Assembly: GCA_009602725.1 (NCBI GenBank)
Contig: WELB01000008.1
Location: 676,284-716,894, forward strand
Direction of reading: 5' to 3'
DNA: 40,611 nt
Origin: Spirogloea muscicola
Lineage: Eukaryota; Streptophyta; Zygnematophyceae; Spirogloeales; Spirogloeaceae
Every line of letters begins with the position of its first letter. Within the stretch, counting starts at the first letter, position 1. Positions 19,501 to 39,760 of this stretch are shown here, in pieces. A program made the position numbers and the translations under genes. The notes beneath the pieces were generated by a model that worked only from the letters and a program-made list of their open reading frames with translations, had not been told where the DNA came from and did not search any database.

Positions 19501-20663
19501 ACTGCAATGCCCGGTTCTTGTAGTTGCGCGTGCCTTCTGGCTGGTCTGGAGGTAGCACCCAGCCGCTGTAGAGGTCAGTCATACGGGTGAGAATTAAATC
19601 GAGGAAGTGTTGCAAGAAATAGGGGAAGCCAGTAAACACCTAAACACTATGTCTTTAGAGGGCCAAGGAGCGAGCTTATAATATGTGGCAGCTGGAAGTC
19701 CAGAGTGCACATGGGAATCCTCAGAAGCTGCAAATTAGCAGTTATTGTTTCAAGATTGAGCAAGAACTCACTCTTTGCCCAGACGGAGGGCCCCCCAGTG
19801 AGCCACCACCGGGGCATGGACCAGATCACCGCCTGACAGTTTCAGCTCCACATATGGCCGTGCACCATTGATGGAGCCAACCGCTCTGATCTGCAGAAGC
19901 CTCACTCAAAAAATTGTCAGCACCTCACATTGCACTGGAAGTAGTTCCCTGTGCAATTAATGGTTCACCAAATCATCTCCAGCTCCTCCTGGACGATATC
20001 TGCACTCAATCGGTCCTTGTAGGTGTTGCAAGCCCTCAGGTGGCTGAGACTGAATATGGGTGGCTTAGTTGTATCAGGTTGAGTGTAATGTGTGGGGAGA
20101 GACACCAGATGATTTAATGCTGCAAGCCGTGGGGAGGTTATTCACCTCGAGCTGGGTGCCGGCCCCAAGCTCATGCATCTCCTCAACCTGGTCAGCAGGG
20201 CAGGAGGACGTGAGAGCCCGCACGTACCTCCAGGTGTGCGTGGCTAGCTACTTTCTTCATGTTGCACATTGAGTGAGAGAGCCTGTGCTGTGCTGCTGTC
20301 CGACACCGCCTCTGGACTATCTGCAATGCTTGCAAGCATGCCAAGATTCGGCGGCAGCCAGACTCAGATGAGTTAGCCAACCTCAGCAGGTGCCCCTTCC
20401 GTCGCAACGGCAGCCCGGGGCGGAGCGGGAGGCCGCGCCCGGCGGCCTCCGCGGCCGCCGGGGCTGTCGACCAGAGCGGGGCCTCCGGAGAAGAACGGAG
20501 CCGCCGCCGCCGCCGNGAGGAGCGAAGGAGAGGCCGGCGAGGGCGAAGCCGGCGGCGGATGGCACTCGCGGCGCCGCCGCCGCTGCCGCCGCGGTCGCCG
20601 CCGGGGACTGGTGAGCCGTGGAGGCGCGCAACTGCAGCCGATGTCGAGTGGTGAATGTGGCTG
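10517..20663 (-). CDS. GWD1: Alpha-glucan water dikinase (starch R1/SEX1 type), plastid; start unresolved
   Basis: GWD transfers the beta-phosphate of ATP to the C6 position of glucosyl units in starch, which opens granules to degradation. From VEEMHELGAG at 20187 to the TAG at 10517 the exons give 1376 residues plus stop. Order: CBM45 starch-binding domain (about residues 10-125, with HWGAL and NSWYKNN); two repeats with LRWERNGKQ and IRWERDGKQ (about 135-245); second CBM45 (about 345-460); helical region with GDVGQRIRDEILVIQ and HQKLHNNTSPDDVV; phosphohistidine loop DVLSHVSVRARN with catalytic His about residue 978; C-terminal ATP-binding domain with GDEGEQRWEQAW, IFRSDSNGEDLEGYAGAG and terminal VVQTRPQM. 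A GC-rich open frame at 20382-20663, ending ATEGAPAE, splices in phase to the next exon and could encode part of a transit peptide, but it has no ATG and contains an N. In the second CBM45 the usual RWIKN Trp is Tyr (NYIKD). Confidence 0.93.
11563..11632 (-). other. Possible cassette or relict exon inside a GWD intron
   Basis: Within the intron 11507-11688, a 70-nt block sits between CTTTGCAG and CTTG|GTCAAC. Read in the phase of the upstream exon it gives a tidy beta-strand-like peptide beginning YHLKLTTGGSSD and including TFKIKDGLLAL. The constitutive junction WTAIKK|VWASKWNE is conserved without it. Its length is 3n+1, so inclusion would shift the frame and reach TGA eight codons on. It may be a regulated poison exon, a relict, or chance. 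Confidence 0.3.
15814..15854. repeat. Tandem duplication of a 20-base unit
   Basis: The unit CTGATGACATAGTACGCTCG occurs twice, separated by one T, in the GWD intron 15698-15872. The copies are identical, so the duplication is recent. Confidence 0.9.
20516..20516. other. Ambiguous base N in the GWD 5' exon
   Basis: A single N interrupts a GCC run in the putative first visible GWD exon. It may stand for a collapsed or unresolved GC-rich stretch, which would explain why no start codon can be placed. Confidence 0.7.
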
Positions 20664-23718: not shown

Positions 23719-26700
23719 TCAAAGAGTGTATGCCTTATCAACGGAGTCCATGTTCTCCAGATTCTGCATCTTGAGAACAGATTCCACGTGGCCCTGCATA
23801 TGCTCAACAAAACAGCGTTACACGTCCAACAGCCCAAAATAATCGCAAAGCAGTTTCCTAGACAAGAAGCAGACCAGTCTTCCCAAGGTCACGTAAATGC
23901 AGGGAGATGACATGCATTCTGTGCACTAGACACCTGTATGAAGATGGCAACCTGCAATGAGGCCAAGAAGCTTACCCTCAGTGTGTGGCGCTCCCGAAGA
24001 CGTGCAATTTCTGCTCGTCTTCTTGCATCGAGATTGATCTTAGACATGGCCGGGTATCTCCTGTCAATGGGTACACTCTTCTCTCCACCTTGCATCCCGT
24101 GACTTGTCCGCTGCGCATGCGCCCACTGTGATTGCCTCTTGCGCTGCTGGTGATGGTGGTGTGTGAACATTGTCTGCGCAGTGGAGGAAGAAGTATGAGC
24201 CTGACCTGGTCTCACAACTGGGATGCCTCACGCACATACTCTGACTTTGCTTAAAACTTAGAGGTTTAGAGTCTACTTGTTTAGGGGTTAGGTTTTTATG
24301 GGCTAGGAAATGAAAGGTTGTATGGTTTGATCCCCCTGAATCAGCATATAGGTGAAGGAAGGCATGTTGTGATCAGATGCTTTTCCCTGATTCGCATCAT
24401 TGGTCGTCGTCACTGAAGATTACCTTGCTCTGTGTCATGAGATGCCACATCTGGCCGTCCATTGCATACTGCACACCAAGCTTGATGAAATCCATAGGGA
24501 AGTAAAATATCAAGTCATACAGCCAGATCACTCCTGCCCAACCCCAGCCTATGCCACGGATGGGAACAAAACCCCACCTTGCATACACCGAGATGAAGGT
24601 TGCCACCTGAAAGACGAGAAGGAGATCAGGCATCCAGAGGCCCATGTAGAGTCCCAAATGTAAAAGTAGCCTTCTGGATAACCAGTAGTTCTTACGAAGT
24701 GCAACTACCGTCTGATGTCACGTTGTCTTAAATTCAAAACAGATGTAGACTCAATCTGCAAAATCTTGTTCCTGGTAGTCTGACTAGGAAATGCAAGAGC
24801 ACCATGAGAGGTTGTGGTGCTGACTTACAAGCTGAGCAACAATGAAGGATATCATAAGAAGTATCCCGGGTCGCTCTGTGTAGGATATCCTCTGAGCTCT
24901 GGTAACAAAAATGAGCGCCTGGCTCATGATACTCACTTGAAGGTAGAGCGCTGAAGCCAGGCGGCTATTGCTGTGAGAGATATCCTTCACACCAAAGATA
25001 TTCTGCAATGAAGAGGTGACACTGTTCAGGCAAGGGTTTGGCAAGTGATTCAACTCAGAACATGCATGCAATACTGCTCCTACATTTCAGATCTACCATC
25101 ATTAAGGACAATGGCATCAGGTGAGCTGCCACATGGAGAGCACCAAATGGCCGGAGGTCAGGATGTCTTACATGGAACAAGTTTCCCCGCATACCAAGGA
25201 AGAACAGCACGCTGAAGAGAGCTTGATAGAGGCCAAGGGAAATTCCAGTTATGAAAATCTCCCTAAGCTTCCAGCTGTCTGGAGTCTGGCTGGGCTTCAC
25301 TCGATCCTGTGCAGAGGAACATCAAGCCGTTTCAGTCCATTATCGCATCAGCACGCCGAAAGCTTAAAAAAGTGCACAAATTTTCCACTGTGTACTCATG
25401 CCAACAAATGAGCAGGTATAATTCACATAAACATTGGTGGCCTGCAGAACAAGCGGGCACCATGCCCAGTATAAAGTTTGGCAGATGTGGCAAACCTTGG
25501 AGATGGTCATGATAGTGCCGTCATTTAGGAATGCAAGAATGAGCACCATGAAGGGAGGGAAATCATACTTCCAGATAAGAGCTATCAACAAGAAACCAAC
25601 CACCACACGGATGGTGATTGCAGTCGCATAGATGGTATAGTTCTGCAAAATCCCAAAGCTGACGCTTGTCACACAGAAGGCTGTTGATCTCTGATCCTAG
25701 TCTGTGCATCCCGAGAGCCTGCAAGACTACAGAAAAGCACAAACAACAAAAAGCGATCCCTGGCTCGTGCACTCACGACCACCCTGCCATTTCCCTCATT
25801 TTGTGCAGCTTTGCGCATCATGATAGACACAGTTTTGACCTCAAGCTACTCCATACTGAACACCTTCATGGCATACCTTCATGCGTTGGAAGATAACTCG
25901 TGAGCGAAGGATGGCACTAATGATTGTGCTCAAGCCAGGCTCCGTCAGGACAATGTCTGCTGCCTCCCTGGCAGCATCAGTAGCGCCAGCAACTGCAATG
26001 CCAATGTCAGCCTTCTTGAGCGCCGGAGCATCATTGACGCCATCGCCCGTCATGGCAACCAAGTGCTTCCTATCTTGCAACACCTTGACAATGTTGAACT
26101 TGTGCTCTGTCAAAGCAAACAATCAGAACACTTCAGTGCAAAGCTGGAGCCTCCTCAATTGCACTAAGCAGCAAGAATGGTAAGAGGAGCACAATGCAGC
26201 ATGTCACAATCTCAGCTACTGTAGTCAAACAGAGTATTGATACGAAGCATCTCTTTACTGACCTGGATAGACCCCAGCAAACCCGTCTGCTTTTTCCACG
26301 AGCTCCCCCAAGTCTGTGCCTGGTGGCAATTGCTCCTTGCCAGTCATAATGTGAGAAGGGTAGATATTGCTGCCCATTCCTAGTCTGCGAGCAGTCTCCT
26401 TGCCAATTGCTAGCTGATCACCTGCCACCCACATGTGTGCACATCGGAAAAGTCATTCTTAACACACTAGCTGCATGCTGGGAAGCTGGTATAGGCTGCA
26501 AGATAATTCTGAACATGAGTTCCTACAATATGCAGGCTCTACACATGGTTGGAAGTGTAGCGAGGAAGTCCTAGCGAGGAAGTCCTTGGGCACTGTGCAC
26601 CAACAAAGTTTCCTCACTGCTACAAAATGGCCTTGATCTTGCTGCTGACATGCAGCTTTCAATCGTGAAGCCTTTTGCAGACTCCTGTGTCTCTTAAACT

Positions 26701-29700
26701 AAGACCCGGCTACTAATCATCAAGAATCACAAGAAGGCGAGATGTAGTAGAAGACCTGTGATCATCTTGACATTGACACCCAGCTCAAGAGCTTTCTCAA
26801 TTGTATCTGCAGTGTCGTGGCGCGGGGGATCAAGCAAGGGCAAGAGGCCCATGAAACGCCAGGGCCCACCAGGTCCTTCTGCGTTGCCATCTGGAATTTC
26901 CTGCAAGTCGCACTTGCACCAGCGAGCATCAGAGCAAAACAGCTAACCTGCGCATTCCTCATGCTGAGTCCTCATCAGTGTGTCATGGCCAATTCTCTGT
27001 TATGACAACACCATGGTCATGCATGGCCTGGGCAACACATTCAGAATCTTGTCTCACCTGCAGAGCCACGCCAAGGGTTCTCAGCCCGCGCTCAGCAAGC
27101 TTGTCAATGCTAGCCATTGCCTTTTGCCGCACGTCCTCTGAGCACTTTGTGAGCTCCAGTACCTGCAGGAGCAAAGACCTTCAACTTACACAATCCATGT
27201 AGCCATTGCTGCATGCATTTGCTGGTGTCCCACACTATCCACACTATGCTGTCCACATCCTGCCCTGGATTAAGGTAAGGCATATCACTCTACCTGCTCA
27301 GGAGCTCCCTTGCTTGCCCTGTACATCTTGCCGTCCTCTGTGGTATACGTAATTGCAGCGCGCTTGTCCGTCGGATTGAAGGGCAAGAAGTGCTTCTCTG
27401 TAATACCAGCTCTTGCCTGCAGAATGCACATGATCAGCACATGGAGACATGGGTGCAGCACTTGCTCAAGTGCTCCAAGGTGCACATGCAATCATCATGG
27501 ATACTGGGTATGCACCTGTCCTGGTTCCTCAAGTGTTCCCACGATTGCCTTGTCAATTGCCTCCTGATTTACGGTACTGGAGGCCCGCGCAGCCAGCAGC
27601 AAAATTTCTTCCTTGTTCGATTGCCCATCAAACACCTGCTCACAAGTCAGGAAATCCCTGTGAGCAAGTGTCCGACACTCTAACCGAATCTGAGCAATGT
27701 TTAGATGGTTCAGAGTCATGCCACCGTCAGTGGGCAACTTGGGTTGCTTACAATAGGCACTACCCACGTAAGTATTACCCAGCATCTATCAGACTTATCT
27801 GTGCACTCAGGGTTGATGACATGCCTCTATGTTCTCCTTATCGACAGTCAGCTGGTTGAGAGTCAACGTCCCCGTCTTGTCACTGCATAATATGTCCATG
27901 CCAGCCATCTCTTCAATGGCCGTCATGCGCTTAACAATAGCTCCCTGCTTGTGCAGATGCAGATTAGGCGTCAGCGCATGTTGGAGCTACCCGTTTGTTG
28001 GGAGGCATCGCAAGCAAATTAGTCTATCACATCAGTAAATCCCATCCTTCCACCCTCTTCATCACTGTTGATCTGTACAGGGCAGTGGCCTTTGTCAGGC
28101 ATGTGAGAGATCAAGCAGTCTGTGTCCTCAAGGGCGTCAATTTCGAATGTGTCTTCAATAGCAGGCACCTGCTTGGCCAGGTGGTGGGAGCCGATGGCCA
28201 TGGTGACTGACAGAACAGTTGGCATGGCAATTGGAATGCCACCAATCAAAAGCACAAGAAGATTGTTGATGCCGTTTCTGTATCTCCGCTTTTGTATGGC
28301 AAACATCACAATCGCCTCTATGAGGATGCCAATGAAGATGGACACAATGCAGAAGCTTCCAATCATAGCAAGCACCTGCAGGCCAAAAGTATCTGACACT
28401 GTTGTAGGACACAGGCTAGAAAAGGCGACTGCAACTCCCAGCTTTAAGGCAATCAAAATCACAATATCAAAGTGCAGCTCCGCTCTGAAAATACATAAAG
28501 TCTGAGCAAGTGACGAACAGATCCCAAGCAGATCAGCAGCATTCACAGGAGCCCTAGACAAGTTTACCACTGGTCACAGACCTTCTGGAAGTGACCCTGC
28601 TGGTCCGCTGTATCCACCAGGTGCGCAGCCTTGCCAAAGAATGTGTGCACGCCCGTAGCAATGACCACTGCATGCAGGTCTCCCTGCTTGCATGTTGACC
28701 CTGAGTAAACTTCATCCCCTTCCTTCTTGTTCACTGGCAATGACTCGCCTGTCAGCGCCGACTGCACAGCCGAGTATCACAGTGCAATTACATGGCTTGC
28801 TTCCTTTGAGTAGACTAAACCTTCCATCTGTACAACTTGAGCTTCGGGCACCATATGCAATCACAGACCGCCTCAGCGAACAGCATGGGACAGTACCTGG
28901 TCCACTTTCAGAGGTTCTCCTTTCAGGAGCCGCGCATCTGCAGGGATGATGTCGCCGCCCCGGATGCCAATGAGATCTCCCGGCACAAGGTGCGTTGCCT
29001 CCATCTCTTTCCAGGCTCCGTCACGGAGGACCTACTCACGAAGGTCATCACACTTTGACAATGATGAGTGCTATCCATACTACAAGATGTGGAAGCGCTA
29101 ATATCCAATTGTACGATCAGCACATGTAGTACTGGCATGTACTGATCTGATAGCATGTCCAGTATTTTGCTTCTGACAGCAGATTATTTGCATGAAAACA
29201 TGCAGGCAGTCAGTAATGGCACTGACAACTCTGACTAAAGGAAAGTTGGGGCCATTGCAGCTGAAGAACATCTTTGAAGTCATAATTGACTATCTCAGTA
29301 TTTGACTAAACATGGACAGTGAGCGTCTGCTACTCGTACATTTGCCGAAGGTGCCAGGTTGGCCATGAGTGCAGCAGCAGCTTTGCCTGCATTGTTCTCC
29401 TCATAGAAACTGAGAGTCGCATTGACCATCAGGAGTATGATGATGCCAACAAAGTCCTCCCAATCAGGTGGGAGGCCCTGCACATTCGGTAGACAATTTT
29501 TGATAAGATTATAGATAGCCATAAAGCGCTTGACAATTAATGATTGCCTCGGCTGACTATTAGGCTGTTGGAACATGAAAGCAGATACAGCAGTGTTAGC
29601 AATGTGTGACGAGGTGACAGTCAGATCACATCTACTGCTGCGCCGTGGCAGGCAGAGGCAATAGCTGAGAGTGATTGTACTGATCGGACCTGGCCGTTAG

Positions 29701-30205
29701 CAACAACAATAGCGACCAGCGCAGCCATCTCCATGACCCAGGACAGCGGATTCCACAGGAAGCTGAGGAATTTCAGAAATGCACTTTGCTGGACACACGA
29801 AAGTGTGTCAAGGTGTCAGAGCATCAACTCTTGTCAAGCCTCTGACCGATGCTGACAATACCATGTCAACCGAAAGCAGCTGCTGGCAGCCGCACATGAT
29901 ATGACAAGCCCAATACATCCACGACTTTGCCCCAAACTTGGACACGTTGTTTGGTAGACTTACACCTTGTCAAGCCGGCCAAGTCAAAGTGACTGCAGTC
30001 TGCATGTTGGAAAGGAAGTTTTGCGATGTGTGTACCATTTGGACCTTATTGCAGGGCTTGCAGCAGCATTGGCCAACTCGTGTAAACAGTCACTCACATG
30101 CTTCTCTTCAAGCTTGTTTTGTCCGAAAATATTGATACGCTCTTCTGCTTCTTGGGATGTCAGCCCCTGCGGGCTTGTCTTGAGCTGATCCCAGACCTCG
30201 TCCAT
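23719..30205 (-). CDS. Plasma-membrane H+-ATPase (P3A type) with plant-like regulatory C-terminus
   Basis: This pump exports H+ across the plasma membrane at the cost of ATP. Nineteen exons join to 926 residues plus TGA. Landmarks: MDEVWDQL and NKLEEKH at the N-terminus; [12 protein letters not shown] in M2; [14 protein letters not shown]; actuator [25 protein letters not shown] in M4; phosphorylation site CSDKTGTLT (Asp about 311); [46 protein letters not shown] in M6, holding the proton-binding Asp; [13 protein letters not shown]. The regulatory domain has [14 protein letters not shown] and [20 protein letters not shown] and ends AYTL, so a penultimate Thr follows Tyr as in the land-plant YTV motif. 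The first ATG in frame is 30203-30205, but family homology extends a few codons upstream (NFKQEHAP) to a stop. A small upstream exon joining at an AG before 30231 is therefore possible. Confidence 0.94.
26559..26586. repeat. 14-base tandem duplication in an H+-ATPase intron
   Basis: AGCGAGGAAGTCCT occurs twice head-to-tail without change inside the intron 26422-26755. Confidence 0.9.
27636..27824 (-). other. GC-AG intron in the H+-ATPase
   Basis: The exon with CSDKTGTLT ends DKENIE (ATAGAG) and is followed on the minus strand by GCATGTC. The next exon opens [10 protein letters not shown] after GAGCAG. Only the GC border keeps the frame; using the nearby GT would lead to an in-frame TGA. Confidence 0.7.
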
Positions 30206-30231
30206 GGGGGCATGCTCCTGTTTGAAATTCA

Positions 30232-31053
30232 CTCAGCGGCGCAGACGCTGGAGGTGAGAAGGCGGTCTGCTCACATCGACCAGCAGGCTTTCGGTGGGCC
30301 ACATTTCCTCCACGCCAGGCTCGTCTTGAGAGGGCAAACCACGGGAATCGAACCTATATCGGGAAGGCTATACAAAGGACAGCCGCTCAAGCCCCTGAGC
30401 ATCTCAGTCAGGGTGACTGCAGCGAGGCCTCTCCTCGTGATGGCTGACTGCAGCAGCCACTCGCAAGGCCGAATTCGATGGCTACCGGGCCGCATTGCCG
30501 TCAGTGTGGAGTAATCAAATGCCTCCCAGCATGCAACGGCCCTGTGCTGGCGGCTGGGAAGTAAGCCCCGAGGTGCAGGCCGTCGGGCAGGACGGGTGGC
30601 GGGGAGCAGGGCTCGGCCAGACTGGCATTGCCGGCCTCACCAGATCAATCTTGTCGAGCGCGTCCGCCTGCAGGCCTCCCGCGGTGGCGCCATGCCCGCC
30701 GCCGCCGTTCACGTCCTTGCCCATGCTGCTGAGCGAGGCGTCGCCTGTCGCGAGCGGAAGCCCGCTGCTGGCTGCGGATGGCCCGCACTGGCGGTTCCCC
30801 CGGCAGCGCGCGCGGGCTCAGAGGCCGCCGCCGCCGCCGCTGCCGCCGCCGCCGCTGTCGCCGTCCTCCTCGCAGCTCTACCGTCAGGCCGCTGCCTTCG
30901 CGCTTGGGCCTGCGCTGAGCGTCCATCTCAGTCCTTCCGGCGGTGCTGGCGTGGAGGTTTGGCCGGCGAGCAACAACAGCTCTTATTCTTGGAAGCCAGG
31001 CAGGCCTGACGCAGGCGCCTCTGAGGTCCTCTGCTGCACTGTTGGCCTCCGCC
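30232..31053. other. GC-rich divergent 5' region
   Basis: This stretch lies between the H+-ATPase start (minus) and an unrecognised frame (plus). It probably contains the H+-ATPase promoter and 5' leader. It is GC-rich from about 30540 with a GCC-repeat core at 30820-30865, and includes the tRNA-like block described separately. No further gene is recognised. Confidence 0.6.
30332..30408 (-). pseudogene. tRNA-like block (degenerate tRNA or SINE head)
   Basis: On the minus strand there is a perfect B-box GGTTCGATTCC (30344-30354), a D-arm-like GCTC...GAGC with an 8-base loop (30385-30400), and between them a 5-bp anticodon-arm-like stem GCTGT/ATAGC with a 7-base loop. The loop lacks T33, one T-stem pair is mismatched, and no 5' strand pairs with the 3' GGTTTGC. 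It is therefore not a functional tRNA. A decayed tRNA or the tRNA-derived head of a SINE fits best. Confidence 0.45.
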
Positions 31054-31749
31054 ATGGCCGCGTCGATGACGACAAGCCTCGTTGTCTCGGATCAGGCTGC
31101 CGCTGTCTTGGCTGCATGTACGCCGAGCTGCAGTGTTGAGTTCCTGAGTAGGAGGCCTGGTGCGGTGAGCTCCGTTGCGAGAAGCAGGGAGGGCCGCTTG
31201 TCAAGCAGGCATGTCAGCGCAAGCCAGGGCCTCAGATTGGATCGACAGTCCCTTGAGCTGGTCCGGAGAAGGAGGAACAGGTGCTCAACCACTGAGAGGC
31301 TGCAGTATTCACAGACAGGACCAAGGGCAGAAGCCAGTGCTGTGGCGCCTGTTCTGGAGACCACAGCCCTCCCTCAATCCTTCATAAGCCAGAAGCAGAA
31401 ATCCACCCAGAAGTTCGTCATAGCTGGAGATTCTGGTGAGGATGGCAGATATGGGCAGGCTGTTGGTGCATTTGAGTATGAAGCGGTGCAGATCACCTCA
31501 AGGCTTCAGATCCTAGAACCCCCAAGTATTCTAGCAGCTCCAGCCAGGATCTCCCCAGTCACTACTGGTCGTAGTCCTGCTGTTGTGGAGACTGGTGCCC
31601 AGACTGGTCTTGTTGCAACTTCAAGGCCAGGACATACAAGTTTGGAGATCAAGACCAGACAGAGCAAACAGGCTTCCAGGCAGCTGGCTGGTGACCAGAT
31701 CAGCGTGCTTCGTGACCCAGCATTGAACAAGGGCACAGCTTTCACGTGA
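31054..31749 (+). CDS. Unrecognised 231-residue protein or first exon
   Basis: No family is recognised. The ATG at 31054 sits in CCGCCATGG, a strong start context. The first 40 or so residues (MAASMTTSLVVSDQ onwards) are rich in Ala/Ser/Thr, followed by Arg, and nearly free of acidic residues, as in organelle transit peptides. The rest is Ser/Thr/Gln/Arg-rich, with no predicted membrane segment by eye. The frame closes at TGA 31747, but that stop lies inside AC|GTGAGT, an excellent donor at 31746. The frame may therefore be a first coding exon of a spliced gene rather than a complete one. No in-phase downstream exon was identified before the next gene. It may also be non-coding. Confidence 0.35.
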   Translation: MAASMTTSLVVSDQAAAVLAACTPSCSVEFLSRRPGAVSSVARSREGRLSSRHVSASQGLRLDRQSLELVRRRRNRCSTTERLQYSQTGPRAEASAVAPVLETTALPQSFISQKQKSTQKFVIAGDSGEDGRYGQAVGAFEYEAVQITSRLQILEPPSILAAPARISPVTTGRSPAVVETGAQTGLVATSRPGHTSLEIKTRQSKQASRQLAGDQISVLRDPALNKGTAFT

Positions 31750-32105
31750 GTCGTTCTTTACTGAGCCAAATGTGAGATAGCACCTGCTCCAAGCAACTGC
31801 AACAGTGGCAGCTGTTCGCCTTGCTCNCCTCTCCACTACCCCCCTCCCCCTTCCTGGATTCCGCCGGTCCGCCTAGGGCCGCCCTCCCTCCTCTTGCCCT
31901 ACACAAGGCGCGGGAGTTACGACCTCGGCAAGTTCCATGCAGCTGCCCACCCAACTCGACCTCAAGCCCGTCTCGCTCAGCCCAACGTTGCCCACCACTT
32001 CGCCTGACTCTGACTCGAGCCGCCATCCTCTGCCACTACTCCGCCACCCAGTCTCCGCCGGCAGTCGGTGAGCAGAGCCGCGGCTTCCTCAGGCCCGCCG
32101 CCAGC
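31750..32105 (+). promoter_or_regulatory. C/T-rich leader and promoter of the first low-complexity gene
   Basis: About 350 bases upstream of the ATG at 32106 are strongly C/T-rich, with short CTCC and CCGCC runs. This is consistent with a 5' untranslated region. An N at 31827 marks unresolved sequence. No TATA box is evident. Confidence 0.4.
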
Positions 32106-33097
32106 ATGGACTACAATAACCAGCAGGGGGGCTACAACCAGCAGCAGGGGTACAACAACCAGGGCGGCGGCGGCATGGGCTACAACGACGGCCAGGGCCA
32201 GGGCTACAACCAGGGCGGCCAGAATATGGGCGGCAGTTATGGCCAGCAGCAGCAGGTAGTTAACCCGCTTCTAGCAGCATCTCCCAACCTGGCCGCGTCA
32301 ACCTTGGCTTGTAATTGTGACTACTACAAGTTCTCTTACTCATAAGGAGAGATGGTTTCTACGTTCTTTGCTTAGAGGAGGGCTACTCACAGTAGCTTCT
32401 GCTAGATTCTCTTCCATTGTCCTTAGAGCATGGACTATACAACAATTGCGGTGTCAGCTGCTAGCAATCTCAACCACATTGAGAAATGTGACGTGCAGGG
32501 CGGCTTCGGAGGACAGCAGGGTGGCTATGGTGACAACCAGGGCGGGTACGGCGGCCAGCAGCAGGGCGGGTACGGCGGCCAGCAGCAGGGCGGGTACGGC
32601 GGCCAGCAGCAGGGCGGGTACGGCGGCCAGCAGCAGGGCAACTATGGTGGGAACAACAATGGCCAGGTCAGGTCCTCGATGCATCCGGGAAAAACCTGGG
32701 CTAATGTATTGCGTTAATGACTTACTGCAACATTAGTAGGTACTCTTGCAACAACAATGTTGACCCTCATCTCACTTGAGTTCTTCAGGATGGCGAGAAG
32801 AAGCATGACCACAAGCGCTTGGAAGAGGTGGCCCTGGTCGGTGCTCTAGGTGTTGGTGCGTATGAGTATGAGCAGCACCGCAGGAAGGAGAAGCGGGAAG
32901 AGGAGCAGGAGCAGCAAAACAATTCTGACCAGCCAAAGCAGCACGACCACAAGCGTCTGGAGGAGGCGGCCGCGGTTGGCGCCCTTGGTGTAGGCGCCTA
33001 TGAGTATGAGCAGCACCGCCGCAAGGAGAAGGAGCAGGAGCTTCAGGAGCAGCAGCAGTATGGCGGAGAGAAGCCCAAGAAGGAGGGTTGGTTCTGA
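32106..33097 (+). CDS. Gly/Tyr/Gln-rich low-complexity protein with doubled ASR-like C-terminal module
   Basis: Three exons (32106-32255, 32499-32666, 32789-33097; both introns phase 0, GT-AG) give 208 residues. Residues 1-106 are almost only Gly, Tyr, Gln and Asn, in repeats such as GGYGGQQQ, like prion-like domains that phase-separate. Residues 107-208 are charged and predicted helical. They contain two copies, 46 residues apart (about 112-149 and 158-192), of HDHKRLEE, a Val/Ala/Gly stretch VGALGVGAYEYEQH, then a Lys/Glu/Gln run. The protein ends KKEGWF. The module resembles the C-terminal HK-x-EE-AAAVGAGG-x-HEHHEKKE pattern of plant ASR (ABA/WDS, water-deficit) proteins, which are disordered, bind zinc and DNA, and protect in stress. 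That is resemblance only. A paralogue lies 2.5 kb downstream. No signal peptide is seen. Confidence 0.82.
32541..32636 (+). repeat. Perfect 24-base coding tandem repeat, four copies
   Basis: Four identical copies of a 24-base unit encode GGYGGQQQ in exon 2 of the upstream low-complexity gene. Identity at every synonymous site implies very recent expansion. Copy number may vary between strains or be collapsed in assembly. Confidence 0.95.
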
Positions 33098-34639
33098 TTT
33101 ACATCAGTTGTGCACATTGCGTAGACAATGTCTTCCGCTAGATGTGTCAACGAAGTTAATGTTGGTTGGCAGCCTGAAGCCTCCTATTAGGTATAAAATT
33201 TTGCAGAGCCTCTTGTTTGCAGCCACTGAGCATATTTTATTTGTTCTAGTATATATACCCAGTTGAGAATGTCTACATTCCACCTTTTTAACATTTATTG
33301 GTATGGTTGTCAACAATACATATATGACCGTGAAATTTCACATCTACAGTGGATATGCTACAAGGGCTGTCGTATGCTTTTCCATGATGGAGTTGTTGTT
33401 GCCCACATCCATTTAAGAAGTTCAGGCTAGTGCCTGCAAGCCACAGAGCTAGAATACAATCTCCATGTTGTCATGGTGCTGTCTTATTGTGCCAAACAGC
33501 CCTAGGCTGCTGCCAGGCAGGTAGCTCTTTCTGAGAGCGCCACTGGATGGAGATACTCCTGGCATTCTTGTGTGGAACTCCTTGGCATTGCTGTTTGAGA
33601 CCATTTTGGACTCAGCTGTTAAGCCACTCGTCTTCAGGCTGGCAGGCGCTAGTCTCCCTCATTGAGATGAACTTAGTAGTAGCCAACCCGGCAAATTGTG
33701 ATGTCTTGACTTGTATACTTACTTCATAAGTGTTGAGCACCCATATCTGTACGACGTTCTTACCTCCCAAAATCTATGGAAAGCTGGCTTACATGGCCCC
33801 CACTGTAGCCACACGAGGAGAGTCGTGTCCTTGGGCTGGCTACTTTAAAGAGTCCTTTGAATGAGTTGCTAGCTTCTCTCGTCTTTCAGAAAGTTGCCCC
33901 AGTACTACTTATACCCTTGATGCTATGTGCCTCTCCCCTGCTCATGGGTGCTAAAGCAGTAAGCAGTTCTTCCAAAAGATGAAACAGCTCTCAGATTGCA
34001 GTGATGGCTGTCAGACGCCCAGCCCAAAGGAGTGGACTACAGTCCGCTTCAGCCTTGCTGAACTTGCTCAGCTTCTTTAGCCCCTCTTAGCCTAAAGCAC
34101 TTTCAGTTGTCCAACTTTTACCGTTTCCTCTGCTTTTCCTACATTGTCAGTGCATTCACACGGCTTGGCCTTAGTTTTGCGTCAAGCTCTCCGCGTGCCT
34201 TTCCTCCTAGCTGCTTCTTCCTTGGGCTGGCTTCTGCTGCACAGGCTCGTTGCCCGCTCTGGCAGCAATAGCAGGCTCTCCATTAGAATGGACGAAGTTC
34301 GAAGGGGCCACCTAAAGCACACAGCAACTAAAGTAGAACAAGGACGCCTCGAGTGGCCACTGGGTGCTCAATATCCCATGTTGAGCAGCCGCATGTCAGT
34401 AGTGGAAGTAGTCTCCGTGTAGCGCTTTAGCGGGCTCATACTTATTCGCTGGGCTGGCCAATCACCTCCAATGCCCCTATACTGGAAGAATCTCTCCCCG
34501 ACAAGGTTTAGATTAGGTCTCCGTATTATGTAGCATTGTTTAGTCTGCACTCGACTCTGCCTGAACAATGTATTGGCTTGAATTGGCCTCCCTTTCAATT
34601 CATGCGCCCCGCGCGCCTTCTCTCCCCGACAAGAATGGA

Positions 34640-35130
34640 AATGCTTCTCCCCAATAGGGCAAGGGCACCGGAAAAAGTAGGGTAAAGCAAAACGGAGTCG
34701 GAGAAAGCGAGGGGGCACGGGAGAACGAGTTGTTCGCCCACGGAGAACAGGGGCTGGGAAACGAGAGAAGTGGCTCTAGCCAATGGGGGGCAATGGCTGT
34801 GAGAGGCCAGCCCGACAAGGAGGGACAAGATGCAGAGAGCCAAAAAGGTGCCGAGGGCGAGAGGGCGAGCAGAGAAAGAGAGAATTGAAGTAAGCTCTGC
34901 CAAAGAGTACTGAGTGATCCGTAGCTGCTTTGTTTCTGTGTGCTAGTTTTTCTTAGCGCTTCCCCTGGCCCCCTTCTCGTCCTTTGTTGATTCATGTTTG
35001 GGCTGGCTTTTCCAGCCCCTATTCTCAATGGGCGAGCGCTTTCTGCCAAGGAGGGGCAAGGGCTGTGACGAAAGACAAGACGCTTCCAGGAGAGGGCGGT
35101 GGCTGAGAGAGGCCAGCCCAGAGAAAATGA
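34640..35130. repeat. Opposed copies of the hairpin repeat
   Basis: A minus-orientation copy (GCCAGCCC at 34806) lies next to a plus-orientation copy (GGGCTGGCTTTTCCAGCCC at 35000), followed by another minus core at 35112. Each core can fold on itself and the opposed copies could pair with each other over longer range. Confidence 0.55.
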
Positions 35131-35369
35131 CTAACAAAGTCCGAAAGACCAGGGAAAGCGCTACAGCACGCACGGAAATAGACAGCCCGAAAATAATTGA
35201 CCAAGTCCGAAGGGAAGAAAGAGGTTGGGGGGGGGGGCGCTCCGCAGCCGTCGGATCTGTTGAGGTGGACGTCCCCGTCTTTAAGAGCCGTTATGCGCCG
35301 CGTCAGCGTCACCTAGTCGCCGAGCCCTTGCGACCGTCCTCGCGCCCCGGGAGGGCCGGAAGGCATCGC

Positions 35370-35375
35370 CACGTG
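35370..35375. promoter_or_regulatory. CACGTG G-box upstream of the second low-complexity gene
   Basis: A palindromic CACGTG lies about 250 bases upstream of the ATG at 35625, in the context CCACGTGTGG. A G-box/ABRE would suit a water-stress gene, but a 6-base match is weak evidence. Confidence 0.3.
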
Positions 35376-35559
35376 TGGGACGCGTGGCACGCTTCAGCGG
35401 GTACCAAGTGGCCTCAAGCCGCTGTTGCTGAGGGCAGGGCCACCGTCTGGTTGACGGCATGCAGTCAAGCTGCCACCCCCCCCGGCTTCCACCCCACCCC
35501 GGCCGCGCCCAGAGAGAAACAACGGTTTAGACTCAGCCCGCTTCCGGCCAACCCCCGCC

Positions 35560-35590
<31 letters not shown>

Positions 35591-35624
35591 CCGCGGGCGC
35601 AGCTCGCCACCAGCGCAGCCAGCC

Positions 35625-36905
35625 ATGGAGTACGGGCGCGGCGAGGGCGGCGGGTACGGGGAGGGCGGGTATGGCGGCCCGCCGCAGGAGCACCACCACC
35701 ACCACCACGAGCGGCGCGACGAGGAGGGCTACGGCGGCGACGACCGCCGGCCCGAGTACGAGCAGCGGGGCGGCTACGGCCGCAACGACGAGGAGTCCCG
35801 TGGCCGGCCCGGCGGCTACAACCAGCAGGGGCCCGGCGGCTACAACCAGCAGGGGGGCTATGGCCAGGTTAGCTGCAAATTTCGATAGTGGTGGTGCCAG
35901 TGACCGTCCGTGCCTGCCTATCTACCAAGTAAGGCCTGCGGGCATCTTCACATCGAAAGGCTGGGCAAACATAGGGACATACTGAGACTTCCGTATAAGA
36001 GGTCCAATCTGCAGTCAAGATAAGAAATTGCAATTAGTATCTGCCACTGTAATCCATTTGCAAGCATCCCATCTCGTGCCGTCACCTGCGCCTGGTGTGA
36101 AGTCACTAATTTGCACGCGCATTCCAAGTCGTAGGCGAGCTCTTGATGTGCTCTTGCAGATAAAGTTTGAGGAACCTGCAATTTGTATAGTGCAATTACC
36201 CAGGCAAACTGCCTGTCCTTGAGCGATGCTTGTCTGGTGTCCGACTCCGCAGGGTCCATATCAAGGCCCTGTTGGTGGTGGAAGTGGATATGGTGGACAA
36301 CAACTTCCTCAGTACAACAACCAAGAGTATGGCTCTGGATATCCTGGCAATCAGCCAGGATATAATGCACAGGGACCTCAAGGATTTCAGGGACCTGGCG
36401 GTGGTGGCAGCGGCTTTGGTGGCCAGCAGATGCCGCAGTACAACAATCAGCAATATGGTGCAGGCTATGGTCCTGGCAGTGCGGTACGTGCCCTGATATA
36501 CCCTCTGATACACTCGTGCTTTGGTCTATCTATTTGCGGACGGGTAAGTGCTGGCTGGCTTGGAGGCCTTGAGTGAGTCCTTTTTGGCTGTAGTTATACC
36601 AAGAATAGCGGCCATCATCATGGATCTGGTGCTGCTTCAGCATCTGACTGCATTTGCAATCACATGTACAGAACCACGAGCCAAAGAAGCCTGAGAAGCA
36701 CCACTATCTGGAGGAAGCAGCTATTGTCGGAGCAGCAGGAGCTGCTGCTCTGGGGGTGTATGAGTACAAACAGCACGAGAAGAAGGAGAAGGAAGAGAAA
36801 CTTCGCAAGCAGCAGGAGCAGCAGCAGTATGGCCAGCCTTATGGTGGTCAGAACCAATACGGGCAACCTCCAAAGGAGGAGAAGAAGCATGGGTGGTTTT
36901 CGTGA
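35625..36905 (+). CDS. Gly/Tyr/Gln-rich protein with His6 run and ASR-like C-terminal module (paralogue)
   Basis: Three exons (35625-35867, 36253-36483, 36672-36905; both introns phase 0, GT-AG) give 235 residues. The N-terminus is rich in Gly, Tyr, Glu and Arg and carries six consecutive His at residues 23-28. Residues 82-158 have two related blocks (GYGGQQLPQYNNQEYG and GFGGQQMPQYNNQQYG). The last exon holds one module: KHHYLEEAAIVGAAGAAALG, then VYEYKQHEKKEKEEK, a Gln run, and the end KKHGWFS. Exon number, phases, domain order and the GWF ending match the upstream gene, so the two arose by tandem duplication. The upstream copy doubled the C-terminal module and expanded its own Gly/Gln repeats. 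Start choice: ATG in AGCCATGG, directly after the GCC-rich leader. Confidence 0.82.
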
Positions 36906-37699: not shown

Positions 37700-39760
37700 G
37701 GCCTGTTACCGTGGCCCTTCTTAGCCACGGGCTTCGTGCTATGTAGCCCGAGATTCCATGTTCTTTGCCTGAACAGTGTGCTGGCTCGGTTTGGCCTCTA
37801 TATGTGCGCACAGCGCGCCTTCTCTCTCGTCATTGACTTTCACAACTTCTCGTCCTTATCTATTGCAGGGCCATCGCCCCTTTTGTGGCTGCGTGGCTTG
37901 CGCCTTCTGGCGCCTGCAAGCCTTATTCTTTTCTTTTGGCTGGCCTTTTACAGCCCTCGGCCCCTAGAAGGAGCTGCTTTTCTTCCACAGCCACCACCTT
38001 CAGCCACCATTTGGCCCTCCCCTCGTTCTTTTGGCCTCTCTAACGATTGCCTAACATTGGAATAGCTGTCTCTCTGTAGCCAAGGGCTTTGCTTAATGTA
38101 GCCCATTGCTTGAACAAGTAGTCTTCACAATGTCTTGCCAAACCGTGCACTGGCTCTTGGCCTTGTTCATTCTCTTGTGGGCTGGATTTTCCAGCCCTCG
38201 GCCTGAAATACTCCTTCGTGGGCTCCCTTCTGTTCACGCGCCCCGCCGCGCGGCCTTCTCTCTCACGCTCGCCGGTCGCATGTCATTGAAAGAGAGGCCA
38301 ATTCTTGCCTTACGAAAGTCTTAATGACGGGGAAATGAGCTGGCTAAGGGGGAGTAAGTTTTCTCAGACGGAGAGTAAGTTTCAGATGTTCTGCGCGTTC
38401 TGGCCTTTCGGACCTTGTTCAGTCCTTTGGGCTGGCCTCTCACACGGACCTTGTCAAGTCTTTTTGGGCAGTCTTATCACAGCCTCTGACCCTGGCAAGA
38501 AACGAGTGTGTAAAGAGATGGAGGGCCTCTGTGACCAAGTACAAAGGCAAGCACATTCACAAATGTACGTCACCTGCTGCTAAGCTGACCCGCTCAGTAA
38601 CCAGTCAGCACGAATCAGCATATAGAGGTAGCTAACTGATGCCCGAATATCGGACGGCAATTGACAAGCTCTTGAGCTACCAGCTAAGGCTCGACCAGCT
38701 TCCCGATGCAACGCATGAGCCTGAGCTCGCTGCAGACAAGCTGACACTCGACGTCGCAAGAATGACAAGTAGGCTACCGGCATGCCCATCTGAGCTGGAA
38801 GCATATCCTCACGTCGAGCATATCCCAAACTTGCAGTATTCTCCAGTAAGCTACTGAAGCGAGGACCCCGGCAAGGGAACCAGCTACCAGGAGACCAGGT
38901 TTTGCAACCTGCGGCTGCTCAAGAGGGAAAATTCCGTGTATTAGAAACAAATGTAGGCCAAATGGCCAAGTACTTAGGCAAGCACATCAAAAGATCTACA
39001 TAACCTACAGCAGATTGACCCTCTCAACAACCACGGGTCAAAACATGAAGGTCACTAATCGATGCATGAATCAACAGGGGATACTGAGTGTTTCTTAGCT
39101 ACTTGTTTCCTTGTGTGCTTTAGCGCTCTCCCCGGCTGCTGTATTCCTGGCCCCCTCGAACTTTGTTTGTTCTTTCTTTCTGGGCTGGCCTCTCAAATTG
39201 CATTTTCAGGCCCCTTCGTCATTGTGGCCCCTTCGACCCTTCGTCGAATCTTTTCGGGCTGGCTTTTCACAGCCCTTGCCCCCACTGGGAGAGCCACTTC
39301 TCTCACAGCCGCCGCCATCTCCTTCAACTTGCCTCTTTGGATTTTGTCCATTCTCTTTGGGTGGGCTGGCTTTGCCAGCCCCTCTGCTCTATGGGCGAGC
39401 AATTTTTCCTGGAAGCTCACTTCTCTCTATCAGGGCGACGTCTTTCCACCAGCTAGCTACTCGGATCTGCATCTCCTGTCTAGAGGTTACTGAGCGTTCC
39501 CTGGCTGATGTCTTAGTCCTAGTCGTTCACTCTCAAGCTCCCTCAGACTTGTCCATTCTTTTGGGCTGGCCTTTCCCAGCCACCAGTCAATCTGGCCGCG
39601 CTTTCTTTCTTTTTTTTCTCTATCACGGCCCTCGCCCCCTTTGAAAAGCGGCATTCTTATCTTTGGACGAGCTTCACTTCTCACAGCAATTGCCTTACAG
39701 TTAAGCAGAGCTGTTTCCGCCAGCCCCTCTCTTCTATGGGCGAGCTTTTCCTTGTTAGAG
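37700..39760 (+). repeat. Dense array of diverged hairpin repeats
   Basis: Plus-orientation cores occur near 37936, 38178, 38429, 39182, 39256, 39363 and 39563. Several can form short hairpins, for example GGGCTGGCTTTTCACAGCCC. A second shared segment, CCTGAACARTGT then TGGCTYG, with GCGCGCCTTCTCTC downstream, links about 37770-37830 to 34558-34625. The copies are diverged, in varying spacing, and show no coding potential. Confidence 0.65.

Follow-up and report, generated by a model that had tools for sequence, protein, structure and literature searches.

An ASR-domain protein of unusual architecture and its tandem neighbour in the streptophyte alga Spirogloea muscicola

The closest described relatives of the gene pair presented here are the ASR proteins, whose domain is catalogued as ABA/WDS (PF02496). 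According to the available part of PMC12202234, a histidine-rich, zinc-binding N terminus is usual in these proteins, yet scattered across the family; two residues that lie 14 positions apart, E79 and H93, are widely conserved; and ASR genes are reported from Klebsormidium, Spirogloea, Mesotaenium and Zygnema on the basis of PF02496 matches at E < 1e-5. Here we describe two neighbouring plus-strand genes, A (32106-33097, 208 residues) and B (35625-36905, 235 residues), in a window of 40,611 nucleotides from Spirogloea muscicola (contig WELB01000008.1, positions 676,284 to 716,894 of the forward strand; coordinates below are those of the window unless a contig is named). The two are genuine genes arranged in tandem, and the product of A is an ASR-domain protein with an unusual architecture, from a streptophyte alga.

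Each gene is made up of three exons, the four introns of the pair are all GT-AG and in phase 0, and the last intron of either gene marks the border between a low-complexity part and the exon that carries the ASR-like module and the GWF end. Exon 1 of A (32106..32255) is an open reading frame running from the ATG to a GT donor, with a low-complexity start rich in G, Q, N and Y; exon 2 (32499..32666) is also of low complexity and contains a 24-base tandem array; and exon 3 (32789..33097) carries the module twice, followed by QQQYG, the GWF end and the stop codon. The two copies, the doubling of which a preliminary description of this DNA had missed, are 30-residue units at residues 112-141 (HDHKRLEEVALVGALGVGAYEYEQHRRKEK, 32804..32893) and 158-187 (HDHKRLEEAAAVGALGVGAYEYEQHRRKEK, 32942..33031), identical at 28 of 30 positions. 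In B, exon 1 (35625..35867) opens with a G/Y/E/R-rich start that includes an HHHHHH run and continues into GGYNQQ repeats, exon 2 (36253..36483) is of low complexity and rich in G, Y, Q and P, and exon 3 (36672..36905), which is homologous to exon 3 of A, carries the module once, then QQQYG, a GWFS end and the stop codon.

The adjacency, paralogy and three-exon structure put forward in the preliminary description hold up when both genes are derived afresh from the sequence. Aligned with each other, the third exons of A and B give a Smith-Waterman score of 150, which none of 1000 shuffles reached (best 76) and which compares with 74 for reversed controls, although the same comparison is much weaker in BLASTP with composition adjustment (E 0.012). 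Judged from these alignments, the tandem genes A and B share one ancestor. The finer motifs fared less evenly: H-x-HK-x-LEE is strict in A (HDHKRLEE), while B has KHHYLEE; EY-x-QH-x-KKE is strict in B, while A has EYEQHRRKE; and the supposedly shared GWF end is exact in A, B ending in GWFS. Of the base differences between the two repeats of A, 13 fall in codons whose amino acid is unchanged and 3 in codons whose amino acid differs, giving a dN (amino-acid-changing) of 0.06 and a dS (amino-acid-keeping) of 1.18 (NG86, 30 codons).

Membership of A in the ASR family is carried by the PF02496 profile, which has 78 positions and a curated cut-off of 25 bits. The full protein scores 34.3 bits (E 3.4e-8), exon 3 alone 35.8 bits, and the gene reaches 37.1 bits in the search of the genome when its neighbours in frame are counted. 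Residues 4-84 of exon 3 align to profile positions 5-75, though the units of A are near-identical and not two diverged halves; a 46-residue piece with repeat 1 alone reaches 25.4 bits and maps to the C-terminal half of the profile (positions 38-77), and a 57-residue piece with repeat 2 reaches 22.3 bits, under the cut-off. PF02496 was listed for one of 43 shuffled or reversed controls (E 0.91), with other families among the matches listed down to E 0.0079, in a scan that covered 25 of the 32 listed families and gives no certain answer on DUF3824. Alignment of A to the reconstructed ancestral ABA/WDS domain, taken from the available part of PMC12202234, gives a score of 76, reached by 0 of 5000 shuffles, with reversed A at 45. 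At the level of single residues, one half-by-half alignment places ASR H93-K94 opposite H8-K9 of A exon 3, the best full alignment being shifted by two, and the candidate counterparts of E79 and H93 in A lie 26 positions apart.

By the usual criterion, then, sequence places A as an ASR-domain protein, but not as a canonical ASR protein, since its N terminus lacks histidine; B is related to ASR proteins solely through its clear homology to A. The ASR likeness originally proposed for both genes is thereby borne out by the profile for A, whereas B fails the profile and takes the label through A. Under the threshold used in PMC12202234, as stated in its available part, A would pass and B would not; a PF02496 search can detect one member of such a pair while missing its neighbour. 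The pair resembles ASR proteins in the score of A over the cut-off, in the charged-GA-charged unit, in the tandem arrangement of the genes and in the match of repeat 1 to the C-terminal half of the profile. It differs from them in its G/Y/Q-rich, prion-like N terminus and its three exons, in having a single unit in B and a near-identical pair of units in A where ASR proteins have two diverged halves, in the longer linker between the units of A, and in the position of B under the cut-off.

Across the genome (153 Mb, 471 contigs), PF02496 gave five matches, two of them gene A and three, on C16, C223 and C345, under the cut-off. The matches on C16 and C223 were considered as further ASR genes and set aside, being under the cut-off and in surroundings that are not ASR-like and that we take to belong to a thiamine-diphosphate enzyme (PHYLLO/MenD-like). 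With the modules as protein queries, the genome returned two and three matches, all inside A and B. Genome and viral contig collections yielded 208 and 211 stretches that each fitted two short peptide patterns, and tblastn confirmed none of them. The best NCBIfam matches were 15.5 bits for B (cut-off 300) and 12.4 bits for A (cut-off 180), and no relative was found among solved structures with A exon 3 as the only query (best match E 2.6).

The N-terminal parts agree with the low-complexity composition, rich in Gly, Tyr and Gln, given in the preliminary description: that of A spans 106 residues, 92% of which are G, Y, Q or N, and that of B spans 158 residues, with 63%. Judged by composition, both proteins possess the long Q/N/G/Y-rich low-complexity region by which prion-like proteins are recognised, with Q and N together reaching a maximum of 32 per 80 residues in the tail of A and 24 in that of B. 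Aromatic residues occur on average every 8.0 (A) and 7.9 (B) residues, and the 106 residues of the A tail include no K or R. They also include no histidine, so A lacks the His-rich N terminus of ASR proteins; B carries the HHHHHH run at residues 23-28, where zinc binding is putative, and the contrast with His-rich ASR N termini, earlier drawn for both proteins, is therefore restricted to A. No hydrophobic leader was seen by eye in A (MDYNNQQGGY) or B (MEYGRGEGGG).

The explanation that we favour, while giving it slightly less than an even chance, is that the tandem pair encodes a prion-like G/Y/Q region joined to an ASR-derived helix module, which together would act as a protectant or store that condenses on drying. 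A and B would be small proteins in which the two parts meet at the exon border, the module being homologous to part of the ABA/WDS domain, plainly so in A and through descent in B, and doubled in A. In the hydrated cell, both proteins would be soluble and largely disordered. Loss of water or binding of zinc would then fold the module into helices, a step carried over from ASR proteins, two of which, from cereals, gain structure with glycerol, trifluoroethanol and zinc according to the available part of PMC5686140. The evenly spaced tyrosines of the tails could, as their composition suggests, drive condensation, and a condensate serving protection or storage would form as the alga dries. Solubility, disorder, folding, condensation and the protective or storage role are what we infer here, condensation being a plausible idea, and by analogy the pair may help the cell to survive drying. 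AlphaFold2, run on single sequences, predicts two long helices for exon 3 of A (mean pLDDT, the predicted local confidence, 73.0) and one for exon 3 of B (73.4), with block means of 82-93 over the unit cores, and these predicted helices, taken with the composition, are compatible with induced folding. A likeness in working only can be drawn to the FLOE proteins, prion-like plant proteins with hydration-dependent phase separation (PMC12448315, available part), in that we propose for A and B a disordered region of prion-like character that would react to the water status; FLOE1 differs in depending on a QPS-rich region, and we claim no sequence relation between it and A or B.

The sequence upstream of B would be compatible with induction by stress. 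An abscisic acid-responsive element (ABRE) core, ACGTGGC, lies on the minus strand at 35368-35374, some 250 bases before the start codon of B, and a word resembling coupling element 3 (CE3), ACGCGTGGC, occupies 35380-35388 (no strand assigned), starting 12 bases after the start of the ABRE core, so that the pair spans 35368..35388. The first seven bases of this word are identical to those of CE3, ACGCGTGTCCTC, as given in the available part of PMC3016407. When the 500 bases preceding B were dinucleotide-shuffled 5000 times, the two motifs, which were picked after the sequence was read, occurred within 25 bases of each other once, the ABRE core 650 times and the CE3-like word 84 times; the whole window holds 12 ABRE cores against 6.3 expected. 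Upstream of A, a stretch of exactly 1,000 bases (30827-31826) is 99.8% identical to a malic-enzyme 5' exon and its flank on C26 and ends at a single N (31827). This near-copy is most likely an assembly artefact, and what lies upstream of A on the far side of the N is for that reason not readable as its promoter or neighbour. The malic-enzyme 5' exon, once considered as an adjacent gene or as a host in which A is nested, was dropped on the same ground. A more distant copy on C18 aligns for about 10 bases past the N, which we take to be chance.

Several observations weigh against an ASR-derived, condensing pair. In the PF02496 search, B reaches 14.4 bits with exon 3 and 16.0 bits with a 54-residue module piece, and the full protein gives no listed match up to E 10. 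Its score against the ancestral ABA/WDS domain in the available part of PMC12202234 is 58 (2 of 5000 shuffles), but reversed B reaches 54. The AlphaFold2 models have a pTM (predicted overall topology score) of 0.32 for A and 0.39 for B, so that no fold is established, and would be compatible with a conditional helix. No ABRE core occurs in the 278 readable bases upstream of A, and the word ASR is absent from the main text of both a zygnematophyte osmotic-stress study (PMC12820192) and a zygnematophyte genome study (PMC11096116). Moreover, the tail of A consists in part of a perfect tandem array of the 24-base unit in exon 2 (32538-32639, 4.2 copies, 100% match), which could reflect neutral expansion. 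This array and another in exon 1 of B (2.1 copies) speak for ASR-type (LEA-like) protectants or zinc-dependent DNA-binding regulators whose G/Y/Q tail is a passive, minisatellite-driven extension that does not condense. The tails of A and B differ while the module is kept, and ASR genes were already reported from the algae listed at the outset (PMC12202234, available part); with a spacing of roughly 8 residues between aromatics in both tails and a shared three-exon layout on the other side, we consider a passive tail possible, if on the unlikely side.

Instead of descending from ASR proteins, the module might be a convergent amphipathic helix of charged-GA-charged type that binds membranes or partners, with an accidental link to stress. 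The likeness of B to the ASR domain, hardly above that of reversed B, would fit such convergence, as would the weak composition-adjusted BLASTP result for A and B, and exon 3 taken alone passes the cut-off of another family, DUF3824 (PF12868; 22.7 bits), in both A (27.1 bits) and B (24.6 bits). Full-length A scores 18.5 bits and full-length B is unlisted, and we do not claim membership. Elsewhere in the genome, DUF3824 matches at C49:432010-432207 (23.3 bits with neighbours) and C95:58613-58819 (21.0 bits, under the cut-off), both of them alanine-, arginine- or lysine-rich low-complexity frames, which calls for caution with this model in GC-rich genomes. Because it reaches such a score on low-complexity DNA of the same genome, DUF3824 is not taken as a confident placement, and the confident match to an unrelated family that the preliminary description had named as its refutation did not emerge. 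In addition, the reconstructed ancestral ASR domain (PMC12202234, available part) gives no match to DUF3824 at E values up to 1, whereas A, and repeat 1 of A alone, pass the PF02496 cut-off, with a single control listing that family; convergence is thus an unlikely account of the module. DUF3824 is not mentioned in the openly licensed literature searched. Glycine-rich structural proteins of the cell wall would share the G/Y-rich composition, but neither protein has a leader visible by eye, and exon 3 is charged and its repeats in A are constrained, which makes such a role highly improbable. That simple-repeat DNA was misread as exons is barely credible: exons 1 and 2 are low in complexity, but splice sites and phases are consistent in A and B, and a dN far below dS in the repeats of A indicates constraint at the protein level, which argues against a non-gene.

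What looks new in this pair is the architecture, a prion-like tail with one or two half-ASR units, ASR genes in such algae being already known. No G/Y/Q-rich or prion-like ASR protein is reported in the titles and abstract starts among the matches listed in the openly licensed literature. A more far-reaching idea, which we regard as distinctly improbable, is that streptophyte algae have a hydration-sensing design of a FUS-like G/Y/Q tail and half-ASR units, of which B would have kept the single-unit form and A would have doubled it independently, while the land-plant ABA/WDS domain would be an old doubling; the ASR family would thus have begun as a condensate-former and later lost its tail. 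The old doubling is suggested by the two halves of the reconstructed ancestral domain (PMC12202234, available part), which align at a score of 66 that 0 of 5000 shuffles reach. The pair makes it possible to test whether condensation that depends on hydration is linked to how a land-plant stress family arose.

Exons resembling an H+-ATPase lie on the minus strand at ~24000-30230, in head-to-head orientation to A, and presumably belong to a plant-type P3A plasma-membrane H+-ATPase. One such exon on C8 has near-copies on C42 (97%) and C39 (90%) and three weaker matches elsewhere. At these homoeologous loci, the stretch where A and B would be expected consists of N for 8,987 (C42) and 8,722 (C39) of 9,901 bases, and for this reason we do not claim that triplicate copies of A and B are absent from a genome reported, in the available part of PMC9065682, as recently triplicated. 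The genome also holds 92 GRAS-domain matches, counted per exon, GRAS genes being a mark of zygnematophytes and land plants, and a chloroplast psaB whose best-scoring relatives of solved structure are moss photosystem I entries. The malic-enzyme exon is found on C11, C18 and C26, beside malic-domain matches, the near-copy in the window being additional to these. Stretches at ~34550-35050 and 39200-39300 are common to the flanks of those three malic-enzyme copies and are apparently dispersed repeats with GGCTGG/CCAGCC words. A second single N, at 20516 inside a GC-rich stretch, may mark another assembly join.

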